NCBI RefSeq assembly: GCF_031760065.1
Contig: NZ_CP134500.1
Coordinates: 6,324,001-6,388,000, forward strand
DNA: 64,000 nucleotides
Direction: 5' to 3'
From: Streptomyces durocortorensis
Lineage (GTDB): Bacteria > Actinomycetota > Actinomycetes > Streptomycetales > Streptomycetaceae
Position 1 is the stretch's first letter; each line of letters starts with the position of its first letter. The notes under the pieces are model-generated. The model saw only the letters and a program-made list of their open reading frames with translations, did not search any database and was not told the origin of the DNA. Below are positions 19,389 through 47,993 of the stretch, piece after piece. The translations under genes were made by a program, and so were the position numbers.

Positions 19389-19455
19389 TTGACGGCGATC
19401 GCCCCAGGTTCTAGATTGCTTCCATATCGCAGAACTAAGTTTCCGTAATACGGAA
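19389..19455 (+). promoter_or_regulatory. gcl promoter with paired AllR-type operators
   Basis: TTGACG (19389-19394), 17 bases, TAGATT (19412-19417) form a good promoter. Directly downstream, over the expected transcription start, are two 15-bp inverted repeats: TTCCATATCGCAGAA (19420-19434) and TTCCGTAATACGGAA (19441-19455, a perfect 7-1-7 palindrome). Their centres are 21 bp apart. The same pair occurs at hyi, aceB and allB. Confidence 0.7.
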
Positions 19456-19515
19456 TTGGTGCTCTCAGGTGGCGCGACAGAGCCCGACTCCACCAATCCC
19501 GAGCAGGAGCACTCA

Positions 19516-21300
19516 ATGCCTCGTATGACCGCTGCCCGAGCGGCAGTTGAGATCCTCAAGCGTGAAGGCGTCAGCAACGCGTTCGGTGTGCCGGGTGCGG
19601 CGATCAACCCCTTCTACGCGGCCCTCAAGGCCTCCGGCGGGGTGCAGCACACGCTGGCCCGGCACGTCGAGGGCGCCTCCCACATGGCGGAGGGCTACAC
19701 CCGGGCCAAGGCTGGCAACATCGGCGTCTGCATCGGTACGTCGGGCCCGGCGGGCACCGACATGATCACCGGTCTGTACTCCGCCATCGCCGACTCCATC
19801 CCGATCCTGTGCATCACCGGCCAGGCCCCGACGGCCGTCCTGCACAAGGAGGACTTCCAGGCCGTCGACATCGCCTCGATCGCCAAGCCGGTCACCAAGG
19901 CGGCCACCACCGTCCTGGAGGCCGCGCAGGTCCCCGGCGTCTTCCAGCAGGCCTTCCACCTGATGCGCACCGGCCGTCCCGGACCGGTCCTCATCGACCT
20001 GCCGATCGACGTCCAGCTCACCGAGATCGAGTTCGACCCCGAGCTCTACGAGCCCCTCCCGGTGCACAAGCCGGCCGCGTCCCGCAAGCAGGTCGAGCGG
20101 GCCGTCGAGCTGCTGAACGCCTCGGAGCGCCCGGTGCTCGTCGCGGGCGGCGGCATCATCAACGCCGACGCCTCCGAGCTCCTGGTCGAGTTCGCCGAGC
20201 TGACCGGCGTCCCCGTCATCCCGACCCTGATGGGCTGGGGCATCCTGCCCGACGACCACGAGCTGAACGCCGGCATGGTGGGCCTCCAGACCTCGCACCG
20301 CTACGGCAACGCGAACTTCCTGGAGTCCGACTTCGTCCTCGGCATCGGCAACCGCTGGGCCAACCGCCACACCGGCAAGCTGGACGTCTACACCCAGGGC
20401 CGCACCTTCGTCCACGTCGACATCGAGCCCACCCAGATCGGCAAGATCTTCGCCCCCGACCTCGGTATCGCCTCCGACGCCAAGGCCGCGCTGGAGCTCT
20501 TCGTCGAGGTGGCGCGCGAGCTGAAGGCCGCGGGCAGGCTGAAGGACCGCTCGGCCTGGGCCGCCTCCACGCAGGAGCGCAAGGCGACCCTCCAGCGCCG
20601 CACCCACTTCGACAACGTGCCGCTCAAGCCGCAGCGCGTGTACGAGGAGATGAACCGGGCGTTCGGCCCCGAGACCCGTTACGTCACCACCATCGGCCTC
20701 TCCCAGATCGCCGGCGCGCAGATGCTCCACGTCTACAAGCCGCGCCACTGGATCAACTGCGGCCAGGCGGGCCCCCTCGGCTGGACGATCCCGGCCGCCC
20801 TGGGCGTCGCCACCGCGGACCCGGAGGGCACGGTCGTCGCCCTCTCCGGCGACTACGACTTCCAGTTCATGCTGGAGGAGCTGGCCGTCGGCGCGCAGCA
20901 CCGCATCCCGTACGTCCACGTCCTGGTGAACAACTCCTACCTGGGGCTCATCCGCCAGGCCCAGCGCAACTTCGACATCGACTTCCAGGTCAACCTGGAG
21001 TTCGAGAACCTCAACTCCCCGGAGCTGGGCGTCTACGGCGTCGACCACGTCAAGGTCGTCGAGGGCCTCGGCTGCAAGGCGATCCGGGTCACCGAGCCGG
21101 ACCAGCTGCTGCCCGCCTTCGAGGAGGCGAAGAAGCTGGCCGCGGAGTTCCGGGTGCCGGTGGTCGTCGAGGCGATCCTGGAGCGCGTCACGAACATCGC
21201 GATGAGCGGCAGTGACATCGCGTCGGTCAACGAGTTCGAGGACATCGCGACGGACCCGTCCCACGCGCCCACCGCGATTCGCCCCCTGACGGTCTCCTGA
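19516..21300 (+). CDS. gcl: Glyoxylate carboligase (tartronate-semialdehyde synthase)
   Basis: 594 residues. It condenses two glyoxylates to tartronate semialdehyde and CO2 using ThDP. The Glu that is invariant in most ThDP enzymes is Val here (LARHVEGASHMAEG, V51), the known hallmark of Gcl. The ThDP/Mg region reads LSGDYDFQFMLEELAVG (about 443) and is followed by VNNSYLGLIRQAQ. The FAD-type middle domain is retained. An AGGAGC site fixes the ATG. It is monocistronic, followed by a strong hairpin. Its promoter carries the paired operators shared with hyi, aceB and allB, so induction by allantoin metabolism is likely. Confidence 0.96.
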   Translation: MPRMTAARAAVEILKREGVSNAFGVPGAAINPFYAALKASGGVQHTLARHVEGASHMAEGYTRAKAGNIGVCIGTSGPAGTDMITGLYSAIADSIPILCITGQAPTAVLHKEDFQAVDIASIAKPVTKAATTVLEAAQVPGVFQQAFHLMRTGRPGPVLIDLPIDVQLTEIEFDPELYEPLPVHKPAASRKQVERAVELLNASERPVLVAGGGIINADASELLVEFAELTGVPVIPTLMGWGILPDDHELNAGMVGLQTSHRYGNANFLESDFVLGIGNRWANRHTGKLDVYTQGRTFVHVDIEPTQIGKIFAPDLGIASDAKAALELFVEVARELKAAGRLKDRSAWAASTQERKATLQRRTHFDNVPLKPQRVYEEMNRAFGPETRYVTTIGLSQIAGAQMLHVYKPRHWINCGQAGPLGWTIPAALGVATADPEGTVVALSGDYDFQFMLEELAVGAQHRIPYVHVLVNNSYLGLIRQAQRNFDIDFQVNLEFENLNSPELGVYGVDHVKVVEGLGCKAIRVTEPDQLLPAFEEAKKLAAEFRVPVVVEAILERVTNIAMSGSDIASVNEFEDIATDPSHAPTAIRPLTVS

Positions 21301-21320
21301 CGCACCCGTCACCCGACGAG

Positions 21321-21361
21321 AGGGCCCCCGCCCCGGAGCGAGTCTCCGAGGCGGGGGCCCT
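21321..21361 (+). terminator. gcl terminator
   Basis: AGGGCCCCCGCC (21321-21332) pairs with GGCGGGGGCCCT (21350-21361), 20 bases after the gcl stop; the inner CGGAG/CTCCG lengthens the stem. Confidence 0.75.
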
Positions 21362-46285: not shown

Positions 46286-46962
46286 CGCTCACCCTGACCG
46301 ACGTCACTCTCACCTACCCGGACGGCGAGGGCCGCCTCACCGCCCTGAACCGGGTCTCGCTGGACGTGCCCCCGGGCGCCCTCACCGCCGTCGTCGGGCC
46401 GTCCGGTTCGGGGAAGTCCAGCCTGCTCGCGGCCGCCGCGACCCTGGTCACCCCGGACTCCGGGGAGGTTTCCGTGGCCGGCGTCCGGACCGCCGGACTG
46501 AGCCGCGCCGGGCGGGCGGCCCTGCGCCGGGAGCACATAGGCATCGTCTTCCAGCAGCCCAGCCTGCTGCCCTCGCTGACCGCCGCCGAGCAGCTCCAGG
46601 TGATGCGGCACCTCTCGGGCGGGTCCGCGCGCGCCGCGCGCCGCCGGGCTCTGGAGCTGCTGGACGCGGTCGGTCTGGCCGACCTCGCGGACCGGCGGCC
46701 GCACCAGCTCTCGGGCGGCCAGCGCCAGCGGATCAACATCGCCCGGGCCCTGATGAACGAGCCGGAGGTGCTCCTCGTCGACGAGCCGACCAGCGCGCTC
46801 GACCACGAGCGCGGCGCGGCCGTGCTCGACCTGCTGGTGACCCTGACCCGGGAGCGCGCCACCGCCACGGTGCTCGTCACCCACGACCTGGCCCACCTGG
46901 ACCGGATGGACCGCACGGTGACGATGGACGACGGGCGGCTGACCGTACCGGCGCGGGTCTGA
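46282..46962 (+). CDS. ABC transporter ATP-binding protein (MacB/DevA type)
   Basis: 226 residues. Walker A is VGPSGSGKSSLL (about 40), Q-loop IVFQQPSLLPSL, signature LSGGQRQRINIARAL (about 143), Walker B VLLVDEPTSALD (about 163) and the switch His VTHDLAHL. It provides energy for the permease at 45203, with which it is translationally coupled. No third (adaptor) gene follows, so this is a two-component exporter. Confidence 0.94.
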   Translation: MTLTLTDVTLTYPDGEGRLTALNRVSLDVPPGALTAVVGPSGSGKSSLLAAAATLVTPDSGEVSVAGVRTAGLSRAGRAALRREHIGIVFQQPSLLPSLTAAEQLQVMRHLSGGSARAARRRALELLDAVGLADLADRRPHQLSGGQRQRINIARALMNEPEVLLVDEPTSALDHERGAAVLDLLVTLTRERATATVLVTHDLAHLDRMDRTVTMDDGRLTVPARV

Positions 46963-46989
46963 GACGAGCTGCGGTACGGCGGGGCGGGT

Positions 46990-47793
46990 TCAGCCCCCGT
47001 TCGTACCGCTGCTCGCCAGCGCGTCCGACAGCTCCTCGGCGACCTGCTGGAGGATCGGCACGATCCGCTCCGTCGCCTGCTCCGTCACCCGGCCCGCCGG
47101 GCCCGAGATGGAGATGGCGGCCGAGGTGGGGGAGTTCGGCACGGAGACGGCGAGGCACCGCACCCCGATCTCCTGCTCGTTGTCGTCCACCGCGTATCCG
47201 GCCCGGCGCACCTGCTCCAGGGCGTCGAGGAAGCCCTCGGGCGTGGTGATCGTCTTCTCCGTGGCGGCGGGCATGCCCGTACGGGACAGGAGCGCCCGGA
47301 CCTCGTCGGCGGGGGTGTGCGCGAGGAGCGCCTTGCCCACGCCGGTGGAGTGCGGCAGGACCCGACGGCCCACCTCGGTGAACATCCGCATGGAGTGCTT
47401 GGACGGCACCTGGGCGACATACACGATCTCGTCCCCGTCCAGCAGTGCCATGTTGGCCGTCTCGCCGGTCTCCTCCACCAGTCGGCTGAGGTAGGGGCGG
47501 GCCCAGGTGCCGAGCAGCCGGGAGGCGGACTCGCCGAGCCGGATCAGACGGGGGCCGAGCGCGTAACGGCGGTTGGGCTGCTGGCGTACGTAGCCGCAGA
47601 CGACCAGGGTGCGCATCAGCCGGTGAATGGTCGGCAGGGGCAGACCGCTGCTCGCGGAGAGCTCGCTCAGCCCGACCTCGCCCCCGGCGTCGGCCATCCG
47701 CTCCAGCAGATCGAAGGCGCGCTCAAGGGACTGCACCCCACCGCTGGAACCGGAGGGCTTGGAGTCGGCTGTGCTGGCGTGGGACGGCGGCAC
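46990..47793 (-). CDS. allR: IclR-family repressor of allantoin catabolism (AllR)
   Basis: 267 residues from GTG 47793 with AAAGGA upstream. N-terminal winged HTH (about 20-80): VQSLERAFDLLERMADAGGEVGLSELSASSGLPLPTIHRLMRTLV. The C-terminal IclR effector domain (about 95-260) contains LPHSTGVGKALLAHTP and GYAVDDNEQEIGVRCLAVSV. It is divergent from allB-alc and by position and family equals AllR of S. coelicolor (SCO6246, from memory), which represses allantoin genes until an intermediate such as allantoic acid or glyoxylate accumulates. The 15-bp paired operators are its likely targets and include one pair in its own upstream region. Confidence 0.9.
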   Translation of the reverse strand: MPPSHASTADSKPSGSSGGVQSLERAFDLLERMADAGGEVGLSELSASSGLPLPTIHRLMRTLVVCGYVRQQPNRRYALGPRLIRLGESASRLLGTWARPYLSRLVEETGETANMALLDGDEIVYVAQVPSKHSMRMFTEVGRRVLPHSTGVGKALLAHTPADEVRALLSRTGMPAATEKTITTPEGFLDALEQVRRAGYAVDDNEQEIGVRCLAVSVPNSPTSAAISISGPAGRVTEQATERIVPILQQVAEELSDALASSGTNGG

Positions 47794-47953
47794 GTGGGCG
47801 ATCCTTTCGAAGCGGAAGGCAAGGCAGCAGCCTACCGGGCCCTTCCCGGTCGGCTCACAGCTCCCGGTCGGCGTCCGTGCCGGTCAGGGCCTGTTTTGTC
47901 CGGGTGGAGACGGTCGGTACGAGCGGTTCGCCGCTGCCCCTTCTGGCCCATGC

Positions 47954-47993
47954 TACGTTCCGCAGTTCGAAATAAGACTTTTACTTTGTGGAA
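47954..47993 (+). promoter_or_regulatory. allB/allR divergent region with paired AllR-type operators
   Basis: A -10-like TACGTT (47954-47959) runs into TTCCGCAGTTCGAAA (47958-47972); a weaker copy, TTTTACTTTGTGGAA (47979-47993), follows with centres 21 bp apart, as at gcl, hyi and aceB. No clear -35 is seen. Confidence 0.6.

Follow-up and report, generated by a model that had tools for sequence, protein, structure and literature searches.

How do the genes for allantoin breakdown and glyoxylate utilization of Streptomyces durocortorensis come to carry the same paired operator at four promoters, and which protein is likely to read it? The genes lie in a 64,000-bp window (contig NZ_CP134500.1, positions 6,324,001 to 6,388,000; positions below are those of the window, and genomic coordinates carry the prefix C1) that encodes glyoxylate carboligase (gcl), a hydroxypyruvate isomerase-like protein and tartronate semialdehyde reductase (hyi-glxR), malate synthase A (aceB), allantoinase (allB) and, divergent from allB, an IclR-type regulator that we call AllR (46990–47793). 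AllR reportedly controls the allantoin pathway genes of Streptomyces coelicolor (Navone et al. 2015, Appl Environ Microbiol 81:6649). The protein encoded in the window is its probable ortholog, likened to it by genus, membership in the IclR family and allantoin gene neighborhood. We consider it likely, with a probability of roughly 85%, that all four promoters bear a two-part AllR operator, on which paired dimers would repress transcription until glyoxylate or an intermediate of the allantoin pathway releases AllR.

Paired operators in the window

A preliminary description of the window had placed two 15-bp operator copies at each of the gcl, hyi, aceB and allB promoters. All eight copies were found at those positions (Table 1), and the pitch from center to center is exactly 21 bp in all four pairs. 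The consensus proposed for them, TTCCR-N5-YRGAA, holds strictly for both gcl and both hyi copies (four of the eight), while the aceB and allB copies are degenerate, these pairs having two or three mismatches each, depending on the strand that is read. The accompanying claim that every pair joins one near-perfect copy to a weaker one is true of gcl only: both hyi copies are strong, and neither copy is near-perfect at aceB or allB (scores in Table 1).

Sites were scored with a symmetric 15-bp matrix, which was derived from 34 distinct gcl and hyi sequences in genomes other than that of S. durocortorensis; the training sites were TTC-N9-GAA pairs preselected at pitch 21, some of them from close relatives. 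Because the training used only gcl and hyi sites that had been preselected in this way, the aceB and allB pairs are the fair test of the matrix. When the window was scanned at pitches of 15 to 45 bp, the pitch-21 pairs summed to 48.9 bits (hyi), 47.8 bits (gcl), 24.3 bits (allB) and 20.3 bits (aceB), and the next-best pitch-21 pair stood at -8.1 bits. No other pitch in this range gave a pair above 16.6 bits, and the pair with that score shares the strong gcl copy. Across 300 first-order Markov windows, the maximum was 8.5 bits at pitch 21 and 17.7 bits at any pitch.

In the 7.3-Mb single-contig genome, the unit TTCC-N8-GAA occurs twice with a gap of 0–30 bp only at gcl and hyi, both times at pitch 21, and the reversed control gave no match. 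Single copies with at most one mismatch say little, since they are too common in the genome (747 forward places versus 469 for the reversed control). A scan for pairs with up to three mismatches returned 14 distinct places, as opposed to two forward and three reverse places for the reversed control. The four named pairs head the ranking at 20–49 bits, followed by a place at a DUF6986 gene (16.5 bits) and one at a malic enzyme gene (15.1 bits); the remaining places, with 12.5 bits or less, were rejected as candidates. Were 21-bp pairs equally common at unrelated promoters, as the preliminary description had asked, the named pairs would not stand out; with 14 places in the genome and the four named ones scoring highest, they do.

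Conservation of the pitch

With a stricter search unit and a gap of 0–30 bp, matches were obtained in 50 of the 61 Streptomyces genomes analyzed, and 100 of the 103 distinct places had a pitch of 21 bp; the reversed control matched a single genome. A looser unit matched 190 of 199 genomes, chance matches included. Among 394 genomes of the class, 50 matched: 31 of 40 Streptomyces genomes, 14 of 40 genomes of a second actinobacterial family (f17) and five others, with pitch 21 at 86 of 94 places (this tally and that for the genus were counted by hand). None of 16 query proteins found a match in the 3-kb loci of the other genomes of the class that have such places (G244, G303, G371, G397 and G407); in G244 and G407 the pitch is 21. 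At 80 named AllR loci (79 from Streptomyces and one from Microtetraspora), the best pair had pitch 21 in 79 cases and pitch 22 in one. This exception is at position 5642 of L309 (Streptomyces sp. WAC 01529), where a 21-bp pair near allR is also present about 131 bp away.

Individual promoters were compared in 30 genomes, namely S. durocortorensis, nine genomes that were pairless under the looser unit and 20 picked for having pairs. The best pair had pitch 21 and at least 10 bits upstream of all 22 gcl and all 23 hyi genes, and upstream of allR in 25 and of aceB in 23 of the 30 genomes; with the threshold at 15 bits, pitch-21 pairs were found at allR in 24 and at aceB in 19 of the 30. When the allR and aceB regions were shuffled by single nucleotides (1200 shuffles), no score exceeded 10.0 bits. 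The gene-proximal copy is the stronger one at gcl (17/22) and hyi (20/23); at allR/allB the stronger copy is the one farther from allR (23/25), and at aceB it is the distal one (22/23).

The nine pairless genomes all encode AllR and aceB, and at the cut-offs used gcl is missing from eight of them and hyi from seven. Loss of AllR was accordingly rejected as the cause of pairlessness, gcl and hyi being mostly missing instead. Within this set, gcl of G048 has a degenerate pitch-21 pair (35.0 bits) and hyi of G060 has a pitch-21 pair of 44.9 bits. In four genomes (G007, G049, G067 and G489), a near-palindrome made of two TTCCGCAT-type units was found at pitch 27, far from the pitch-21 places and near-identical in several of them.

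Operators of this general form have been described before. According to Suvorova and Gelfand 2021 (PMC8222616), 94 orthologous groups of the IclR family are predicted to act on tandem palindromes with centers 18–22 nt apart, mainly 19–21, a spacing explained there by tetramers whose dimers sit on one face of the DNA. The present pairs, with 21 bp at four promoters and in relatives, fall within this spacing, AllR being the probable binder. The group 1 core given in that paper, KTYCRY-W3-4-RYGRAM, resembles our sites, and the present regulon may already be among the groups in its supplementary tables. What differs is that a range of spacings is given there for the family as a whole, whereas one exact value is seen here at the compared promoters in two families. 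Tandem IclR operators and the control of allantoin genes by AllR are already known, and the present pairs are a further case; they look like a real, well-conserved control switch of an already described kind. A literature search that covered few subscription papers, mostly not in full text, found no paper on an exact 21-bp pitch in Streptomyces.

The regulator and its linkage to the operator

Membership of AllR in the IclR family is supported by matches to PF09339 (67.7 bits, cut-off 22) and PF01614 (151.3 bits, cut-off 24). Orthologs with 74–97% identity were found in all 29 other Streptomyces genomes searched, and the AllR of Streptomyces sp. WZ.A104 matches the protein at 100% identity. The segment that we take to be the recognition helix, GLPLPTIHRLMRTL, is present in 29 of the 30 Streptomyces orthologs. 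In 26 of 30 loci allB lies beside allR; 25 of these 26 loci and none of the four others have a pitch-21 pair scoring 10 bits or more upstream of allR. One of the 25 (L040) is doubtful, with exactly 10.0 bits and an odd placement.

The second family provides a separate view of this association. All 14 strict pitch-21 pairs of f17 genomes lie directly upstream of aceB, and in each of the five clusters examined (of the 14) an AllR homolog with 54–55% identity, and with 10–11 of the 14 residues of the presumed recognition helix, is encoded 4.2–4.7 kb downstream of aceB. The Pfam annotation of two of these clusters shows, between aceB and the regulator gene, an iron-sulfur protein containing cysteine-rich (CCG) domains as well as two FAD-binding proteins; the top-scoring NCBIfam models in L248 are those for glycolate oxidase GlcD and GlcF, neither of which reaches its cut-off. 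To a distance of about 20 kb in both directions, no homologs of gcl, hyi or allB were detected in the five clusters. Since pair, aceB and AllR homolog are linked here and the helix is mostly shared, the operator is tied to the regulator independently of Streptomyces. The earlier suggestion that the IclR-type protein of the window binds the pairs is thus strongly supported by genome comparison, through its linkage to allB in Streptomyces and to aceB in f17. The f17 clusters (L229–L252) suggest a glycolate/glyoxylate switch with no allantoin genes nearby. A 19.2-bit pitch-21 pair is also seen elsewhere in G251 (L248, 10444-10479), where it precedes a second IclR gene (33% identity) by about 70 bp; this IclR gene is followed by a gene for a protein with a B12-binding domain.

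AllR and IclR of Escherichia coli share with the regulator of the window both the family and the physiology (allantoin, glyoxylate and malate synthase). The AllR of the window scores far below the equivalog cut-offs for E. coli AllR (NF007548, 120.9 bits versus 406) and E. coli IclR (NF008601, 168.2 bits versus 380); its best NCBIfam model is that of BhcR (NF045644), again below cut-off (202.4 bits versus 350). The E. coli AllR and IclR motifs listed in PMC8222616 (TGGAAATNATTTCCA and KTTGGAAWAWTWTTCCAAC, respectively) differ from our sites. Most of the residues that PMC11323563 gives as oxygen-binding in the pocket of E. coli IclR, with their numbering mapped onto an alignment with 1td5, are kept in AllR of the window: Gly, Asp, Ser and Ser are retained, and Ala161 is replaced by Val. 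This mapping makes glyoxylate a plausible signal.

Further candidate targets

Beyond the four named pairs, only one of the 14 places in the genome proved to hold a conserved pitch-21 pair. It belongs to a gene (C1:448894-450237) for a DUF6986 protein, a remote relative of HpcH/HpaI aldolases encoded far from the cluster. The pair (C1:450216-450251, L118) lies upstream of the start or overlaps it. It scores at least 10 bits in 23 of 26 orthologs, mostly 12–20 bits and in one case 36.7 bits, and its first copy is usually degenerate. The presence of DUF6986 tracks that of allB beside allR (25/1/1/3, Fisher p = 0.004, in 30 related and chosen genomes in which allB was sought beside allR only). No solved structure matched DUF6986 at E values up to 1, and no paper naming it was found in the literature search. 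The conserved pair suggests a physiological context for this uncharacterized protein family. A tentative idea, to which we give somewhat less than even odds, is that a glyoxylate switch of ancient origin and portable nature underlies the exact 21-bp pair, seen in f17 at an aceB-glycolate oxidase cluster that ends in an AllR homolog and in Streptomyces at DUF6986; DUF6986 would then be an unrecognized enzyme of glyoxylate or ureidoglycolate metabolism and could be, for example, a ureidoglycolate lyase.

The malic enzyme gene was rejected as a target: only six of 29 orthologs have a pitch-21 pair of 10 bits or more, the sequence being a different one in one of the six, and in the other orthologs the spacer is variable. 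An operator-like element, TCTCGTATGGTGGAA...TTTCCG (C1:2502757-2502792, L122), is nonetheless widely kept about 280 bp before the query part of this gene. It scores 14.6–15.3 bits at pitch 21 in five close relatives, S. durocortorensis included, and its second half varies elsewhere.

The aceB promoter and the proposed mode of action

Upstream of aceB, a block of about 85 bp is conserved in 23 Streptomyces genomes, in which TTGAAC is followed by 17 bp, TASTAT (TACTAT in S. durocortorensis) and the remainder of the operator pair. The first palindrome occupies the gap between the putative -35 and -10 elements and the second touches the putative -10, so that the palindromes overlap the putative core promoter, a layout that suits a repressor. 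Some 45 bp upstream of the pair (consensus TCGACcCgGAGAATCTCGACATCAACAAACCA) are strongly conserved in the same genomes and might be bound by a second regulator. Protein coding was rejected as the cause of this conservation, since an open reading frame there (41849-42826, + strand) has no Pfam match and nearly every position is conserved.

From the sites and their linkage to AllR we infer the following mode of action. The two palindromes, of the TTCCRY-N3-RYGGAA type, would face the same side of the helix with their centers two turns apart, and would be occupied by two adjacent AllR dimers, most likely in the form of a tetramer. Cooperative binding by such a dimer of dimers, already proposed in the preliminary description, is suggested by the geometry and by the published trend in the family. 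On the aceB pair, AllR would block RNA polymerase. Glyoxylate, or another intermediate of the allantoin pathway, would bind in the IclR pocket and release AllR, and allantoin breakdown (allB and allantoicase), glyoxylate conversion (gcl, hyi and glxR) and glyoxylate use (aceB) would be switched on; allR would be autoregulated. The metabolism of purine nitrogen and glyoxylate in Streptomyces would thereby gain a regulon defined precisely enough to be tested, and the five promoters, with their strong and weak copies at a fixed pitch, would offer a natural series in which the reading of paired sites by IclR-type tetramers can be measured.

Several points weigh against this reading. Shared ancestry inflates the pitch counts, the places not being independent, so the occurrence of one pitch at non-homologous promoters is a stronger argument than the counts. 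The rates among the 30 genomes are not unbiased, since 20 of these were picked for having pairs, and the training sites of the matrix were likewise picked as pitch-21 pairs. Seven aceB regions have no pitch-21 pair (in five no pair reaches 10 bits, and in the other two the highest-scoring one is at pitch 19 and at pitch 34, respectively). In most genomes the second aceB copy is weak (about 4–7 bits), and at hyi of G048 the pair is borderline (10.8 bits) and possibly inside a coding region. A generic promoter scan at aceB stayed below its threshold (9 of 12 needed), so that the aceB promoter is drawn from conservation, and no clear -35/-10 elements were seen at gcl, hyi or allB. The pocket of AllR is partly changed on its hydrophobic side (Leu143 to Ser, Leu154 to Val and Leu220 to Val). 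Exclusive binding by AllR is called into question by the pitch-21 pair that the second IclR gene of G251 has for itself. Finally, repression is not certain, because BhcR, according to PMC11323563, activates in vivo even though glyoxylate weakens its binding to DNA.

AllR might also bind as two independent dimers, with the 21-bp pitch set by the position of the promoter and not by contacts between dimers. The aceB copies, located on the gap between the putative promoter elements and on the -10, fit such an arrangement, as do three more distant relatives (L110, L112 and L114) in which the second aceB copy has decayed and the first, with the adjoining ACTA, is kept. Against it, the pitch stays at 21 bp while the pairs lie at varying distances from the aligned gene start (from -38 to -137 at gcl), and five promoters that are not homologous share this pitch, as does a second family; we regard independent dimers as unlikely.

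Less probable still is that AllR acts as an activator or a dual regulator in the manner of BhcR, the source of its best NCBIfam model, rather than as a simple repressor. In PMC11323563, BhcR of Paracoccus denitrificans is a glyoxylate-responsive IclR-type regulator, in a sister group to the IclR and AllR homologs, that activates its target cluster and whose binding to DNA is weakened by glyoxylate in vitro. A single potential palindrome upstream of the -35 is proposed there for BhcR, as opposed to the pairs seen here. Against an activator, the aceB sites overlap the putative core promoter, and the S. coelicolor homolog is cited as a repressor in PMC12772271. Control by another IclR paralog, binding in place of the linked AllR or sharing its sites, is very improbable: the genome encodes eight further IclR relatives (E ≤ 0.001; the best, at C1:1321713-1322417, is 41% identical) and the second IclR gene of G251 indicates that similar pairs can accompany other IclR proteins, but the pair keeps to allR where allB is adjacent, the closest AllR homolog is the one linked to the paired aceB in all five f17 clusters, and the 33% identical protein has a different presumed recognition helix.

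Genes of the cluster

The gene identities given in the preliminary description were upheld by family models, with gcl, glxR, aceB and allB above cut-off and hyi, below it, only hyi-like (Table 1). The catalase gene, which lies 3' of glxR on the same strand, may be cotranscribed with it.

Table 1. Operator copies, promoter elements and genes of the allantoin/glyoxylate cluster in the 64,000-bp window
Feature	Position	Strand	Remarks
gcl operator, distal copy, TTCCATATCGCAGAA	19420..19434	+	21.5 bits
gcl operator, proximal copy, TTCCGTAATACGGAA	19441..19455	+	26.4 bits
gcl, glyoxylate carboligase	19516..21300	+	TIGR01504, 1198 bits, above cut-off; ATG at 19516 is the chosen start
Catalase, 3' of glxR	21921..23525	-	PF00199
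glxR, 2-hydroxy-3-oxopropionate (tartronate semialdehyde) reductase	23622..24515	-	TIGR01505, above cut-off
hyi, hydroxypyruvate isomerase-like	24596..25435	-	309 bits, below equivalog cut-off of 353
hyi operator, proximal copy, TTCCGCAATACGGAA	25453..25467	-	24.7 bits
hyi operator, distal copy, TTCCGTTAAGCAGAA	25474..25488	-	24.2 bits
aceB, malate synthase A	40104..41723	-	TIGR01344, 839 bits, above cut-off
Strongly conserved block 5' of aceB, with operator pair and about 45 bp more	41838..41921	-	Profile of 23 genomes
aceB operator, proximal copy, ATCCACTGGTCAGAA	41840..41854	-	4.4 bits; overlaps end of putative -10
Putative aceB promoter, TTGAAC-17-TACTAT	41853..41881	-	Conserved in relatives
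aceB operator, distal copy, TTCCACTATGAGGAA	41861..41875	-	15.9 bits; between putative -35 and -10
allR, IclR-type regulator, divergent from allB	46990..47793	-	PF09339, PF01614
allR/allB operator, allB-distal copy, TTCCGCAGTTCGAAA	47958..47972	+	8.7 bits; relatives have the pair at the same place
allR/allB operator, allB-proximal copy, TTTTACTTTGTGGAA	47979..47993	+	15.7 bits
allB, allantoinase	48102..49472	+	TIGR03178, 613 bits, above cut-off; start not settled
Allantoicase	49357..50694	+	TIGR02961, above cut-off; start not settled

A divergent open reading frame with an HTH_22 domain (25502-26446, + strand) starts just beyond the hyi pair (window 25453-25560). Because the pair is also directly upstream of this reading frame, it could control transcription in both directions. 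On the 3' side of the HTH_22 gene lie genes for OHCU decarboxylase, HIU hydrolase, uricase and a purine permease.

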